In this document: in pieces, positions 56,437 through 62,430 of the stretch
Layout of the letters: every line of letters begins with the position of its first letter
How positions within the stretch are numbered: position 1 is the first letter of the stretch
DNA from: Acidobacteriaceae bacterium
Lineage (GTDB): Bacteria; Acidobacteriota; Terriglobia; Terriglobales; Acidobacteriaceae
NCBI GenBank assembly: GCA_003165795.1
Contig: PMWW01000201.1
Coordinates: 1 to 64,000, forward strand
Reading direction: 5' to 3'
Length of the DNA stretch: 64,000 bases
Made by a program: the position numbers and the translations under genes
The notes under the pieces: model-generated
Seen by the model: the letters and a program-made list of their open reading frames with translations, nothing else
Databases searched by the model: none
Told to the model about the DNA's origin: nothing

Positions 56437-58776
56437 ATGGCAATGGCTACTGTTCACACTGAAGCCTTATCGGAATCGCTGGGCCTGCGCGATTGCAAAC
56501 CCATTCCTTTCGAGCAGCTTCCCTTCAGCGCTTTGGACGCCACTGCCGGCAGTGAGGACGAACTGCAAGCCGTGGTGGTAGGCCGAGCGAACGATTGCGA
56601 CCTGCCGCTGAGCATTCGCGAATCGCGTTTCTTCCGCAACATCGCCCGGCGTAGCGCTAGTGGGGAAGCGCCCCGCCGCACCTTGCTGGAGCTGGAAGCC
56701 TTCCTCCACGACACCCACGGCGTTTGGGAAAACAGTTGGATTCGCTTTCCCGAGTCGCGGCTCAGCCGGCACGCGCTACACGTCTTCCATGCCGATCTTC
56801 AGGTCACGCGGAACGGCTCCACCGGCGCGCGCTCGGACGCGTTGCGCTTTCGCTTCACGCAGAACGGCGAGCCCTGGCTGCGGATCCCGATTAGCTATGC
56901 GCTGAAGTTGTCGCTGGCCGACTTGATCGGCGCGCAGCCGCACCTGCCTGAGGCGATGCGTCAGGAAGCGTCGCGTCTGATGCGGCACTTTCTCAACGAC
57001 AACACCTCGCCCGAAACCACGTCGTTTCACATCGTGACTGCGGAGTCGAAACGTTCGCTGGGCGAGCAAGTCGCGCGCGAGGCGGCGCGGCGGTTCCTAT
57101 TCACTTCACTGCTGATTTCGTGGGCGAACCGGCAATTCGGTTTGCTGGAAAGCGGGCAGCGGGCGCTGGTCTATCACGCGCCGGTGCCCTCGGTACACCA
57201 GGAAGAGCTTTCGGCGTGCACCTCCGACTCGTTTTATCGCGAGCTGTTCATGAGCCCGTGCCTTTCGGGATGGAGCGACGGCGAAGAGAAATATCAGTAC
57301 ATGCACCTGTGCCACCAGGTGCTGAGCCGCAGCCAACTGAATGCCGTCGCCAAGCTGCGCGAGGCCGGCATCATCGCCAACGACCTGATCGTGCTGCCCA
57401 GCCTGTCGAACGTGAGCCTGGCCAACAACGGCATCCACATCAGCATGGGCAGCCGCACGCTCAGTCGGCAACTGCGATGTCGGGCGGGCTTTCTGCCCGC
57501 GGACGAGAAGCGCCTGGGCGATCTGGCCATCAAGATCTACGAACACTTTCTCGCACTGTTTGTCGGGACCTACAGCGCAGCTCCCTACCGCATCGGCTTT
57601 ACCCAGTTTCATCCCGAGCGCCTGCTGTCGTTCCTGCCGCACGAACTCGACTTCACCCATCTCCGCCTGCTGTGGCGCGAGTGGAAGGAGAAGGCGCAGC
57701 TCAGCCTGTGCGGCCATGCGCTGACGCCGTACGGTCCGCGCGGGCTTGATCGCATGGTTGCGAAACTGTTTAACCTTCGCGGCGATTGCGTTCCCGACGC
57801 GCGTCTGCTGACCTATCCCGTGGCCTGGCTGGCGAGCGAGCAGGCGTCGGCGCTGGACGGAACTTCGGGAAACATTCAACGGCTGTCATCGGAGCTGGAC
57901 GAACTCGGTATCGTCGATCAGCGCATGTCGTTTTATATGCCGCTGCGACTGCGGGAGGAGCAGCGCGACGGCTACTCCGGCTTCGAGGCGCGCTATTACA
58001 GCCTGTTTCCCAGCTACGATCGCGACATGGCGCCGGCCGCTAACCTGCAGCAGTTCTTGCTGGCGCTGGCTTACCGGCTAACGCTGCAGGGCAACGTCAC
58101 GCACCAAGAAATTCCCGACGATCCCACCTCGGAGAGCGAGCGCCGCCAGCCGTTCTTCTTTTCCGCCGCGGGCGTTCCCGCGTTCTACGTGCATCGCGAC
58201 TCGCGCAATCAGTTCCTGCGCACTCTTCTGGTGAACTGCAAGAAGACCCGCCCCAGCCGCAGGCACCCGGGATATTTCCGCATCTCGATTCGCGACTATC
58301 GCCTGGCGCTGCTGGCATACATCCAGCAGACGGCCAGCGATTTGGCCGAAGCCATGAACATGCAAGCCACGCTCGCCGATCTGGCCGTGCGTTGCACCGA
58401 TAAGCGGCAGGAAGCCAGCCATCGCTTGCTGAGCGCCGTGCTCGGCGATTCCGCCAAAGATGCGATGCACATCGAAGCCAACCAATTCAATCGCATGGCC
58501 GAAGATTTCTATCGCGAAGATTTGCGGCGCGAGCATTTGCGGGAGGCGCTGGCCCATCTGCGCGAAGATATTGCGGAGCGGGAGCGTTCGGAGCCCGAGA
58601 ACGGCAGACAATGTATGAGGCATGGCGTGCGCATCCAGGATGCGGCGCGGTTTCTGCCCGGTGTCGAGGAGCGTGTCTTGCGCGACGATGTTTCGCCCCA
58701 GGAAATCGCGGCACTGCTGAACCTGCTGGTGCTGCTGACCGAGCAAGACCGCCGCCGGACGCGGGCACTCGCATGA
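56437..58776 (+). CDS. Large protein of unknown function, first gene of PSD/Lgt-like operon
   Basis: The product has 779 residues and no signal peptide or membrane segment. I do not recognise a family. The chain is mainly helical, Leu/Arg-rich, with conserved-looking segments WIRFPESRLSRHALHVFHAD, LRIPISYALKLSLADLIGAQ, VYHAPVPSVHQEELSACTSD, SFYRELFMSPCLSGWSDGEE, AGIIANDLIVLPSLSNVSLA, and PYRIGFTQFHPERLLSFLPH. The C-terminus is charged and helical (FYREDLRREHLREALAHLRE). Its stop overlaps the start of the decarboxylase gene (ATGA at 58773), so the two are translationally coupled and probably share a pathway. The many His and Arg residues are compatible with an enzyme acting on phosphate-bearing substrates, but this is only a guess. 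Confidence 0.7.
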   Translation: MAMATVHTEALSESLGLRDCKPIPFEQLPFSALDATAGSEDELQAVVVGRANDCDLPLSIRESRFFRNIARRSASGEAPRRTLLELEAFLHDTHGVWENSWIRFPESRLSRHALHVFHADLQVTRNGSTGARSDALRFRFTQNGEPWLRIPISYALKLSLADLIGAQPHLPEAMRQEASRLMRHFLNDNTSPETTSFHIVTAESKRSLGEQVAREAARRFLFTSLLISWANRQFGLLESGQRALVYHAPVPSVHQEELSACTSDSFYRELFMSPCLSGWSDGEEKYQYMHLCHQVLSRSQLNAVAKLREAGIIANDLIVLPSLSNVSLANNGIHISMGSRTLSRQLRCRAGFLPADEKRLGDLAIKIYEHFLALFVGTYSAAPYRIGFTQFHPERLLSFLPHELDFTHLRLLWREWKEKAQLSLCGHALTPYGPRGLDRMVAKLFNLRGDCVPDARLLTYPVAWLASEQASALDGTSGNIQRLSSELDELGIVDQRMSFYMPLRLREEQRDGYSGFEARYYSLFPSYDRDMAPAANLQQFLLALAYRLTLQGNVTHQEIPDDPTSESERRQPFFFSAAGVPAFYVHRDSRNQFLRTLLVNCKKTRPSRRHPGYFRISIRDYRLALLAYIQQTASDLAEAMNMQATLADLAVRCTDKRQEASHRLLSAVLGDSAKDAMHIEANQFNRMAEDFYREDLRREHLREALAHLREDIAERERSEPENGRQCMRHGVRIQDAARFLPGVEERVLRDDVSPQEIAALLNLLVLLTEQDRRRTRALA

Positions 58777-59792
58777 GCCACGCGGAACATCAGTACATCG
58801 ATCGCGCTACCGGCAACGTGGTGCGCGAACGTCTGCTGGCAAACTCCGTGGTCAGCGCGCTCTACTCTCCCGCGCTGGAGAAGGCCCCGCTGCTGACGCG
58901 GCTGGCCTCCAGCCGCTATGTTTCGCGCGTTCTTGGCTACTTGAATTATGACAACGTATTGTCGTCGCGCGCGACCGGCATGCTGAAGTTTCTGCGCGGG
59001 TCCGGCATCCAGCTTTCGGAGTTCGTCGGCAACTTGTCGGAGTACGACACCGCGCGCAAAATCTTCGAGCGCCAGATCCGGTATTGGAATTGCCGCCCCA
59101 TGCCGGCGAGTCTGCCCGCCGTGGTTTGTCCCGCCGATGCGCGCGGCTTGATCGGCTCAATGGAGCAGTCGTCGGGTCTTTATCTGAAGCAGAATTTCTT
59201 TTCGTTTCCCGAGCTGCTGGGCGATGGCTCGCCGTGGCAGCGTGCGTTTTCCGGCGGCGACTACGCGGTCTTTCGCCTGACCCCGGAGAAATATCATTAC
59301 ACCCACTGTCCGGTGGCGGGACGCGTAGTCGATATTTACTCCGTCCAGGGCCGCTACTATCCCTGTAATCCCAACGCGGCGGTGCAGCTGATGACGCCAG
59401 TTTCGAAAAACCGCCGGGTAGTAACGATTCTCGACACCGATTGCCCAAACGGTTCGGTGGCGGGACGCGTTGCCATGATCGAAGTGGTCGCCCTCATGAT
59501 CGGACAGATCGAGCAGCGTTACAGCGAGCATCGCTACGAAAATCCGCGCCATATCGAGAAGGGAATGTTTCTGCGGGCAGGCGCACCCAAGGCGCTCTTT
59601 CGTCCGGGGAGCAGTACCGTGGTCCTGCTCTTCCAGCGTAATCGCGTTTGCTTCGCCCGCGACTTGGTGGAAAACCAGCAGCGCTGCGGCGTTCACAGCC
59701 GCTTTTCTCTGACATTGGGGGAGCCGGTCACGGAAACCGATGTTGCCGTGCGCTCGCTGCTGGCGACGCCAGTCGAGGAGGAAGCATGTTGA
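58773..59792 (+). CDS. Phosphatidylserine decarboxylase family protein
   Basis: The product has 339 residues. Hallmarks of the family: VVCPADARGLIGSMEQSSGL (catalytic Asp of the S-P-x-D segment), EKYHYTHCPVAGRVVDIYSV (His-containing YHxxHxP motif), and FRPGSSTVVLLFQ, where PGSS stands in for the usual LGST at which the proenzyme cuts itself to form the pyruvoyl group. It should decarboxylate phosphatidylserine or a related serine or aspartate compound. It lacks an obvious membrane helix. It overlaps the genes on both sides. No phosphatidylserine synthase is adjacent, which argues for a specialised rather than housekeeping paralogue. Confidence 0.8.
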   Translation: MSHAEHQYIDRATGNVVRERLLANSVVSALYSPALEKAPLLTRLASSRYVSRVLGYLNYDNVLSSRATGMLKFLRGSGIQLSEFVGNLSEYDTARKIFERQIRYWNCRPMPASLPAVVCPADARGLIGSMEQSSGLYLKQNFFSFPELLGDGSPWQRAFSGGDYAVFRLTPEKYHYTHCPVAGRVVDIYSVQGRYYPCNPNAAVQLMTPVSKNRRVVTILDTDCPNGSVAGRVAMIEVVALMIGQIEQRYSEHRYENPRHIEKGMFLRAGAPKALFRPGSSTVVLLFQRNRVCFARDLVENQQRCGVHSRFSLTLGEPVTETDVAVRSLLATPVEEEAC

Positions 59793-60838
59793 ACGCCGGC
59801 TTCGTTGCTGCACTTGCGCTGGGAATGTTCGCGCTGATCGTGTGGGGCGTGCGCACCCTGCCCGCCGAGCGCTGGCAGATGCTGGCGGCCGTGCCCATCG
59901 CGAAATCGGTTGATGGCTCGTGGCGCGGATTGAACCTCACCTTCTACGGCTTCTTCAGCGCGACCGGTACGGCCTTCGGCTTCGCGATCATGTGGTTGTT
60001 GCTCGGCTCCGTCGGGATTCCCGTGGTAGTCAGCATTGCGCTGGTATTGCTCATTCTGTTGGTCTGCGTGCCCGCATCGCGGATGATCGCCGGGCTCGTC
60101 GAGAACAAGCGCAACACCTTCACCGTCGCCGGCGCCGCCTTCGTCGCGACCATCGTGCTGCCGCTGCTGGTGCTGGCCCTGCAGCCGCTGGCTGCCCATG
60201 TACTACATTGTGAGATTCCGGTGCTCCCCACCTTCGCGGCGGCGGCGATTGCCTACGTGCTGGCCGAGTCGATTGGACGCCTGGCTTGTCTTAGTTTCGG
60301 ATGCTGCTATGGCATGCCGCTACGCGATGCGAATCCTACGATCGCGCGCCTTTTTCAGAAGCACAACCTGGTGATTCACGGTGCAACCAAGAAAGCGGCG
60401 TACGCTTCCGGCCTGGACGGCGAGCCCCTGATTCCGGTGCAGGCGGTGACTTCCGCGGTGTTCGCCGTGTCCGGAATAGCGGGCGTCGCGCTGTTCCTGA
60501 CGCGGCAATTTCGCCTGGCAGCGCTGGTTCCGCTGATCGCGAGCTGGGGATGGCGCACCGGGTCCGAGTGGTTGCGTGCCGACCATCGCGGGGCCTCCCG
60601 ATTTTCGGCTTATCAGGTGATGGCCATCGTCTCGGTGATCTATCTCAGCATCGTTCTGCTGCTGATGCCGGCAGCTTTGCCGGTTGTACCTGATCTGGCC
60701 GCCGCCTTCGCACAAGTGTTTTCCGCGCCAGCAATTCTTGCCCTGCAGATATTCTGGGTTGCACTGTTCTGGTATTACGGCAGAAGCCGGGTCACCGCAT
60801 CGACCCTGTCGTTTCACGTTGTCGCAGACCGGATCTAG
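59786..60838 (+). CDS. Lgt-like polytopic membrane protein
   Basis: The product has 350 residues. GAGGAGGA precedes the ATG at 59786, which lies inside the end of the previous gene. About eight membrane helices are seen. The loop ESIGRLACLSFGCCYGMPLR, then LIPVQAVTSAVFAVSG and RTGSEWLRADHRGASRFSAY, matches the order of conserved parts of prolipoprotein diacylglyceryl transferase (GR..NFxxG or GCCYG, PxQ, and R.xxEfxR). It differs from true Lgt in its N-terminal half, so it may transfer a diacylglyceryl unit to something other than lipoproteins. Ends the three-gene operon; maf follows after 59 bases. Confidence 0.7.
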   Translation: MLNAGFVAALALGMFALIVWGVRTLPAERWQMLAAVPIAKSVDGSWRGLNLTFYGFFSATGTAFGFAIMWLLLGSVGIPVVVSIALVLLILLVCVPASRMIAGLVENKRNTFTVAGAAFVATIVLPLLVLALQPLAAHVLHCEIPVLPTFAAAAIAYVLAESIGRLACLSFGCCYGMPLRDANPTIARLFQKHNLVIHGATKKAAYASGLDGEPLIPVQAVTSAVFAVSGIAGVALFLTRQFRLAALVPLIASWGWRTGSEWLRADHRGASRFSAYQVMAIVSVIYLSIVLLLMPAALPVVPDLAAAFAQVFSAPAILALQIFWVALFWYYGRSRVTASTLSFHVVADRI

Positions 60839-61578: not shown

Positions 61579-62430
61579 TTAATTGGGTGTGGCAAGAAAG
61601 CCGGTCTGCGTTAGGCCCACGTAATATCCGACAAACTGACCCGAGTCGTTGAAGCCGGTAAAGTAGGCGAAATCGAGGTTGGGAAGCGGAAGCTGGGTGA
61701 ATGTCCCGTTCTGATAAATGAAGGCGTGGTTGAGGAAGGCAGCGTCAGTGTAGTAGCCAAGAATCTGGCCGTGATTGTTAATACCAACAAGGACAGTGTC
61801 CTGAGCGCCAACTGGAAAATCTATGGTGGAGTAGTTGCCCGCAGATTCGAGAAAGCCGTGGTCATAACCACTGGAGCCGTAGTAGTACCCCACAATCTGT
61901 TTGGAATCGTTGATCCCAAGCGGGTTCGTGGCGGTCGCTCCGGGGTAACTGACGATGCTAAAGGTGCCCGTCGAGTACAAAAAGCCGCCGCTATGCGGCG
62001 CGTTGGAGATACCGAGCACATCGCCGGGATTGTTGATGGCGGAAAGCAGGGTCACGGTTGCGCCGGGATAGTCCAAGGTGGTATAGGTCGCTCCGTTGTA
62101 AACAAAGCCGTGATAAATTCCCTCCTGCGCCTCATAAAACCCGGCAATCTTTCCTGCGGAATTGATGCCGACAGGACTCGTGTATTGACTTCCTGGGTAG
62201 TAGACATCCGAGAATGTGCCCAGGTGATCGACATATCCGTGGCTGAAGTTGCCACCCGAGGGAACGTAGTTGCCCACGACATCGCCCGCGTTGTTCATGC
62301 CGGCAGTATTGGTATCGGTAGAGCCAGGCACGAAGATGGCCTTGAACTGGTACCCCTGCGCATGGGCTATGGCCGCGAAACCCAGAAAGAAGGACAAGCA
62401 GAACCCGCGAATGTCCCAGGCAGGCTCCAT
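61579..62430 (-). CDS. Exported HAF-repeat protein
   Basis: The product has 283 residues with a signal peptide (FCLSFFLGFAAIAHAQ). Repeats of about 40-45 residues carry GxNxxGxxxGxY and HGF (MNNAGDVVGNYVPSGGNFSH, INSAGKIAGFYEAQEGIYHG, INDSKQIVGYYYGSSGYDHG, INNHGQILGYYTDAAFLNHA). This is the HAF extracellular repeat (TIGR02913-type) found in many soil bacteria. Probably a beta-propeller; the role is unknown. Confidence 0.85.
   Translation of the reverse strand: MEPAWDIRGFCLSFFLGFAAIAHAQGYQFKAIFVPGSTDTNTAGMNNAGDVVGNYVPSGGNFSHGYVDHLGTFSDVYYPGSQYTSPVGINSAGKIAGFYEAQEGIYHGFVYNGATYTTLDYPGATVTLLSAINNPGDVLGISNAPHSGGFLYSTGTFSIVSYPGATATNPLGINDSKQIVGYYYGSSGYDHGFLESAGNYSTIDFPVGAQDTVLVGINNHGQILGYYTDAAFLNHAFIYQNGTFTQLPLPNLDFAYFTGFNDSGQFVGYYVGLTQTGFLATPN

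Follow-up and report, generated by a model that had tools for sequence, protein, structure and literature searches.

Phosphatidylserine decarboxylases normally act on phosphatidylserine and turn an α-amino acid head group into an amine, Lgt moves the diacylglyceryl moiety of phosphatidylglycerol onto a nucleophile with release of glycerol phosphate, and carboxylate-amine ligases form an amide on an amine. Relatives of these enzymes are encoded side by side in the 64,000-nucleotide stretch of DNA analysed here (Acidobacteriaceae bacterium, GenBank assembly GCA_003165795.1, contig PMWW01000201.1, positions 1 to 64,000; hereafter the window), in a three-gene cassette for a predicted carboxylate-amine ligase, a phosphatidylserine-decarboxylase paralogue (PSD) and an Lgt-like membrane protein. 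The cassette encodes a genuine and well-conserved pathway that appears to be undescribed; its enzymes come from known superfamilies, with a substantial chance that its chemistry is new, and no description of it was found in the open-access literature searched. The analysis supports the proposal, made in the initial annotation of the window, that an unusual lipid is the likely product.

Several described systems invite comparison. Membrane remodelling upon phosphate starvation relies on PlcP-Agt (glycolipids), BtaAB (betaine lipids), OlsAB/OlsF (ornithine lipids) or GlsAB (glutamine lipids); the cassette likewise consists of lipid-type genes and occurs in phosphate neighbourhoods, but it uses none of these enzymes. 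In Desulfovibrio under phosphate limitation, ornithine lipids and glycolipids replace phospholipids (PMC5193443), and the aminolipids reviewed to date are made mostly by N-acyltransferases acting on amino acids, not by diacylglyceryl transfer and decarboxylation (PMC11631085). The PssA/PssD-dependent lipid anchoring of archaeosortase substrates in haloarchaea (PMC7157517) likewise employs a PSD-family enzyme to make a lipid for a second purpose, whereas the cassette has other partners and no tie to a sortase.

A conserved operon in addition to housekeeping psd and lgt

The initial annotation had described three open reading frames (ORFs) overlapping at both junctions, and reading of the ORFs confirmed these coordinates:

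56437-58776, forward strand: 779-residue predicted carboxylate-amine ligase, a new family of the glutamate-cysteine-ligase superfamily
58773-59792, forward strand: PSD, 339 residues (PF02666, 2e-36)
59786-60838, forward strand: Lgt-like membrane protein, 350 residues (PF01790, 2e-4, and fold match)

The stop of the ligase gene and the start of the PSD gene share the ATGA at 58773-58776, and the end of the PSD gene overlaps the start of the Lgt-like gene by seven bases (59786 before 59792).

A scan of 84,980 species genomes with a seven-sequence alignment of the large protein from the window's genus yielded 55 loci, a lower bound because the search relied on two exact heptapeptide patterns. The relatives, 41-80% identical to the large protein of the window, are spread over at least five bacterial phyla, namely Acidobacteriota, Desulfobacterota, Planctomycetota (anammox and other), Nitrospinota/Nitrospirota and Spirochaetota; their hosts include Acidobacteriaceae metagenome-assembled genomes (MAGs), Geobacteraceae, Desulfuromonas, Desulfobacteraceae, Desulfarculaceae, Syntrophaceae, Brocadia, Anammoxibacter, Nitrospina, Nitrospirae, Planctomycetota and Spirochaetia, with Desulfocarbo indianensis (L046) and Dethiosulfatarculus sandiegensis (L053) as examples of carriers in culture. 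The PSD gene directly follows the ligase gene in 53 of the 55 loci, and all three genes, with order and orientation kept, are found in 48. This conservation excludes chance adjacency; far from being rarely together, the three genes form one conserved operon, as had been claimed. The seven incomplete loci comprise five at contig ends, one (L027) whose PSD and Lgt-like genes sit, as an inverted pair, at a different place on the contig, and one (L041, Desulfuromonas MAG, genome G471) with ligase and PSD but no Lgt-like gene in the MAG, which is either an incomplete genome or a two-gene version.

At the level of whole genomes, the Lgt-like protein was found in 32 of 33 cassette genomes. Among 396 genomes of Acidobacteriota the ligase occurs in two, and the same two encode the full-length Lgt-like protein, the sole other match being truncated, a remnant that adjoins a phoA-like gene. 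In the window's genus eight of nine genomes carry the cassette, as opposed to none of 52 other relatives. The pairwise distances of the three proteins correlate (r = 0.76-0.85), and the patchy spread over phyla suggests that the cassette has moved as a unit by horizontal transfer. No relatives of the large protein were present in the viral collection.

No other gene family is conserved beside the cassette in most loci, and no transporter, nonribosomal peptide synthetase, redox partner or sortase is conserved there; the next commonest neighbour group, present in 22 of 57 loci and with a kinase-like protein as its largest member, did not resolve into one gene. In the genome with the split cassette, the PSD and Lgt-like genes flank a DksA/TraR-like zinc-finger sequence (L070:6880-7737, reverse strand), and gaps of 0.4-0.5 kb separate these two genes in L030, L032 and L040 also.

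In the window genome, a second psd adjoins pssA (recognised from its sequence, not via a family library) on a different contig, and a canonical lgt is located on yet another. Each of the 23 cassette genomes searched contains two or more PF02666 genes, and all 26 searched contain a canonical lgt. Since the hosts possess separate housekeeping psd and lgt genes, the cassette is an extra, non-housekeeping pathway; the initial annotation had reached the same view.

Fold, catalytic residues and relatives of the three proteins

The PSD is a clear member of its family (125.9 bits against a cut-off of 22), with PRK00723 as its closest NCBIfam model. Its relatives in the PDB are 7cnw and 6l06 (5e-9); the PSD-family L-tryptophan decarboxylases 8zia and 8x4q are also among the matches, weaker than the lipid-type Psd 7cnw. 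An alignment of 42 sequences places the following sites, including the PGSS variant that had been noted before:

59136-59138, forward strand: Asp122 (Asp of the E. coli PADG motif), invariant
59295-59306, forward strand: HYTH with His175 and His178, both invariant
59604-59615, forward strand: PGSS self-cleavage site, with Gly279 and Ser281 invariant and Ser280 nearly so

Asp122, His175, His178, Gly279 and Ser281 align with the catalytic Asp, the His pair and the Gly-Ser of the E. coli enzyme. The cassette enzyme thus shares the family score and the catalytic residues with phosphatidylserine decarboxylase; it differs in being a second copy, tied to two partners rather than to pssA, and in carrying PGSS instead of LGST. 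In one relative (L055, 2807-3817) PGAS replaces PGSS, so that the pyruvoyl serine of the family may be the second one, Ser281; the L055 protein would be either inactive or cleaved at that residue. The presence of a second psd in every genome searched argues for a substrate other than phosphatidylserine.

The kinship of the third protein with Lgt, also claimed earlier, holds. The window protein scores 21.3 bits with PF01790 (cut-off 24.9), a weak match, and most relatives, at 25-42 bits, lie above the cut-off. An alignment (hhalign) with the window genome's own Lgt has a probability of 97% over 226 columns. The AlphaFold2 model (predicted local distance difference test, pLDDT, 92.6; nine transmembrane helices predicted) finds E. 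coli Lgt (5azb; Foldseek probability 1.00, E 0.0035) as the only sensible match in the PDB. The relevant sites are:

60275-60313, forward strand: GRLACLSFGCCYG, counterpart of the Lgt signature motif with Arg143 (Arg165 here)
60554-60589, forward strand: Arg257, Glu261 and Arg264, equivalents of Lgt Arg239, Glu243 and Arg246
60134-60151, forward strand: site of the Lgt HGGL acceptor motif, AAFVAT here and not conserved

In Lgt, Arg143, Arg239, Glu243 and Arg246 have been assigned to phosphatidylglycerol binding and catalysis, and HGGL has been proposed to bind the lipobox peptide (PMC4728403). The equivalents Arg165, Arg257, Glu261 and Arg264 are invariant in 42 Lgt-like sequences, and the diacylglyceryl-donor chemistry looks kept. 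HGGL is absent, the family having TVGGA/SFVG at its place. Of the catalytic Arg and His whose conservation the initial annotation had singled out for checking, the arginine part stood (Arg143 and Arg239, together with Glu243/Arg246) and the histidine part did not. Even among canonical Lgt proteins, however, His103 is retained by just 10 of 26 sequences, and it is absent from that of the window genome. With respect to Lgt, the protein retains the fold, the signature Gly-Arg and the catalytic equivalents; it lacks HGGL, adds an N-terminal transmembrane helix with strands as well as a C-terminal helix and strand, coexists with a separate canonical Lgt, and shows reversed charges. Its loops, delimited by AlphaFold2 helix ends, carry 17.6 Lys+Arg on the catalytic side as compared to 1.5 on the opposite one, a bias with the same sign in all 42 sequences; for 26 canonical Lgt proteins, with loop limits set by hand from the E. 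coli sequence, the values are 7.5 on the catalytic (periplasmic) and 11.8 on the cytoplasmic side, with the inverted direction in two. When conserved Lys/Arg columns are left out, the Lgt-like loops still have 10.0 (≈ 110 residues) versus 1.5 (34 residues). By the positive-inside rule these counts predict an inverted protein, with its active site toward the cytoplasm, the compartment of the ATP-dependent ligase and the PSD.

For the 779-residue protein no sequence-family match was found in Pfam, NCBIfam or the PDB, and the Pfam models of GCS2, GshA and Pup ligase gave no match. The proposal that it is a new enzyme can be refined by its AlphaFold2 model (pLDDT 87.5, predicted template modelling score, pTM, 0.91), whose Foldseek search against the PDB returned, as its eight best matches, GshAB, GshA of two species, yeast glutamate-cysteine ligase and PafA (probability 0.60-1.00, E 0.012-1; top six 0.90-1.00, E 0.012-0.14), with Dop lower in the list. 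Carboxylate-amine ligases are the only credible structural matches. The invariant residues of a 47-sequence alignment include:

56548-56562, forward strand: GxExE motif (Gly38, Glu40, Glu42), invariant, counterpart of the superfamily ATP/metal motif
57430-57453, forward strand: GIHISMGS strand with invariant His334, by eye a possible counterpart of GVHYNFS in GshA
57985-57993, forward strand: ExR motif (within FEAR) with Glu517 and Arg519 invariant, by eye a possible counterpart of IEVR in GshA

GhExE is the ATP-binding motif of the superfamily (PMC7947786); in the present family the motif lies on the first strand, with Ser, Thr, Val or Ile at the second position. The order GxExE, His on a strand, ExR is that of E. 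coli K-12 GshA, the latter two equivalences being motif comparisons and not superpositions. Further invariants are Asn189-x-Ser-Pro-Glu193, His293, Arg298, Asn330-Asn-Gly-x-His334, Glu369, Arg414, Lys419, Asp450, Asp454 and Arg456. In comparison to GshA, glutamate-cysteine ligase, GCS2/YbdK and PafA/Dop, the protein has the same predicted glutamine-synthetase fold, GxExE on the first strand and the same His/ExR order; it exceeds them by ≈ 250 residues, has a helical C-terminal part, and matches no Pfam model. Judged from the model and these motifs, it very probably represents a new family of carboxylate-amine ligases, distant within the superfamily. Apart from the cassette, a GCS2/YbdK-type ligase (GIEEEYQT motif) is encoded in the window genome (L085, C44:39582-40418) and in many relatives (L073-L095).

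Phosphate genes around the cassette

The setting of the cassette is phosphate metabolism, a feature missed in the initial annotation. The E. coli pho, pst, ppk and ppx proteins were searched for in 57 cassette loci and in 40 control regions, the surroundings of housekeeping psd and lgt in the same genomes. Phosphate genes are located beside 12 of the 57 cassettes and none of the 40 controls (p = 0.001); for phoB, phoU, pst and phoA alone, the figures are 8 of 57 and 0 of 40 (p = 0.019), both p values being approximate because related loci make the sample not fully independent. With NCBIfam models, PhoU, PstS and PstB score above cut-off, the kinases are of the PnpS/PhoR type, and each response regulator tested has PhoB as its best family, with a score slightly below the cut-off of that model.

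The arrangements vary. A pstSCAB-phoU-phoR-phoB cluster diverges from the cassette in L033; in L031 phoRB is divergent and a phoA-like gene lies downstream; L035 has phoB upstream and another phoB between the PSD and Lgt-like genes. Furthermore, phoB-phoR-phoU occurs in L044 and L048, and phoB, phoU, pstS and a phoA-like gene in L027/L070. A truncated Lgt-like ORF at L173:9546-12572 (genome G329), with neither ligase nor PSD, is situated directly upstream of a PhoA-like alkaline phosphatase, apparently the remains of a decayed cassette beside which the phosphate gene has persisted. The OlsB-type ornithine-lipid N-acyltransferase family is absent from 23 of 30 cassette genomes searched (a count made for carriers only), which leaves room for another aminolipid.

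Two observations may be added. In five loci of Deltaproteobacteria (L033, L036, L037, L047, L063), a Pho-box-like element with 11-base spacing, CTAACATnnnnCTGnCATAA, is found upstream of the ligase gene. In the window, positions 61579-62430 (reverse strand) encode a putative secreted protein of repeated Gly/Asn-rich units, each ending in GY.

A proposed lipid pathway and its alternatives

There is, in our estimate, an even chance that the cassette is a transferable set of three enzymes for an amino-acid-type membrane lipid made mainly at low phosphate. In a first step, the Lgt-like enzyme would move the diacylglyceryl moiety of phosphatidylglycerol, on the cytoplasmic side, onto a small nucleophilic amino acid, for instance via a cysteine thiol or a serine or homoserine hydroxyl, and glycerol phosphate would be freed. 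The pyruvoyl enzyme PSD would then remove the α-carboxylate of the head group to leave a primary amine, to which the 779-residue ligase would attach another carboxylate, for example an amino acid, at the expense of ATP. The outcome would be a phosphorus-free aminolipid in place of phosphatidylethanolamine. Cysteine is an attractive acceptor because Lgt natively alkylates a cysteine thiol, although this version by itself is rather unlikely. Somewhat less doubtful, and still tentative, is the bolder idea that, in the cytoplasm, a flipped Lgt homologue joins the diacylglycerol of phosphatidylglycerol directly to an amino-acid head group, that decarboxylation and amide capping by the ligase come next, and that gene transfer has spread this class of phosphorus-free lipid as a phosphate saver among anaerobic, soil and nitrogen-cycle bacteria.

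In favour of the pathway are the invariance of the gene set across phyla, the correlated divergence of its proteins, the separate housekeeping psd and lgt, the ligase fold with GxExE, the intact catalytic residues of the PSD, an Lgt donor site kept with HGGL lost, the reversed charges, the phosphate neighbours and the absence of OlsB from most genomes searched. Several points weigh against this pathway. Most cassettes have no phosphate neighbour within ≈ 8 kb, and the window has neither a phosphate gene nor a convincing Pho box near the cassette. A Pho-box scan gave scores of at least 11 for 8 of 50 upstream regions, with ≈ 1.5 expected from shuffles, a weak enrichment derived partly from related species; the comparison with regions upstream of other genes is confounded by base composition. 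For the Lgt-like protein, the predicted topology derives solely from charges, and the order of steps and their substrates are guesses. The Foldseek E-values for the ligase range from 0.01 to 1, so that its assignment rests on consistent hits and motifs; hhalign of its profile with GCS2 gave negligible probability, though the best local match is the GxExE stretch, and the profile alignment with GshA is not significant. It is these E-values and the non-significant alignment that keep the ligase assignment below certainty.

The best of the rival explanations, itself unlikely, has the cassette decorate an ordinary phospholipid: PSD would yield a phosphatidylethanolamine-like amine, the ligase would add an amino acid or peptide, the Lgt-like protein would move diacylglyceryl or remodel the product, phosphorus would be kept, and the phosphate neighbours would reflect general stress. 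The usual substrate of the PSD family, the full set of catalytic residues and a ligase fold suited to amide formation on an amine all agree with this. However, a housekeeping psd is already present in 23 of 23 genomes, in the window genome next to pssA; phosphate genes are enriched near the cassette; and Lgt chemistry cuts the phosphate link of its donor.

More improbable is a soluble amine or peptide-like metabolite, made by a decarboxylase acting on a free amino acid and then lipidated by the Lgt-like enzyme for signalling, redox or defence. The L-tryptophan decarboxylases 8zia and 8x4q and the soluble peptides made by the ligase superfamily, such as γ-glutamylcysteine, offer precedents for it; PSD is nevertheless closer to the lipid-type 7cnw than to these decarboxylases, and the loci conserve no transporter, nonribosomal peptide synthetase or redox partner.

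There is a slim chance that the large protein is no ligase at all, its fold match being superficial, and that its role is in binding, regulation or unrelated catalysis. The lack of any sequence match in Pfam, NCBIfam or the PDB, Foldseek E-values above 0.001 and a query-normalised TM score of ≈ 0.3 would fit; against it, the eight best structural matches all belong to one superfamily, unrelated folds appear only later at low probability, and GxExE on the first strand is invariant.

Least probable of all is a lipid that serves as acceptor for surface proteins sorted by an exosortase or another sortase, for although haloarchaeal anchoring sets a precedent and many cassette genomes, that of the window included, have exosortases, no sortase gene lies beside the cassette, a same-genus genome without the cassette has an exosortase, and PF09721 has no match in 9 of 30 genomes searched, on which account the exosortase was rejected as an obligate partner.

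To our knowledge, genes have yet to be assigned to many phosphorus-free lipids of anoxic waters, peat and sediments, and the compact three-gene cassette is a directly testable candidate for such lipids. If the proposed aminolipid pathway is true, it would add a new family of carboxylate-amine ligases, a PSD-family enzyme in a new role and, possibly, an Lgt homologue that would be the first to work on the inner face of the membrane with an acceptor that is not a lipoprotein.

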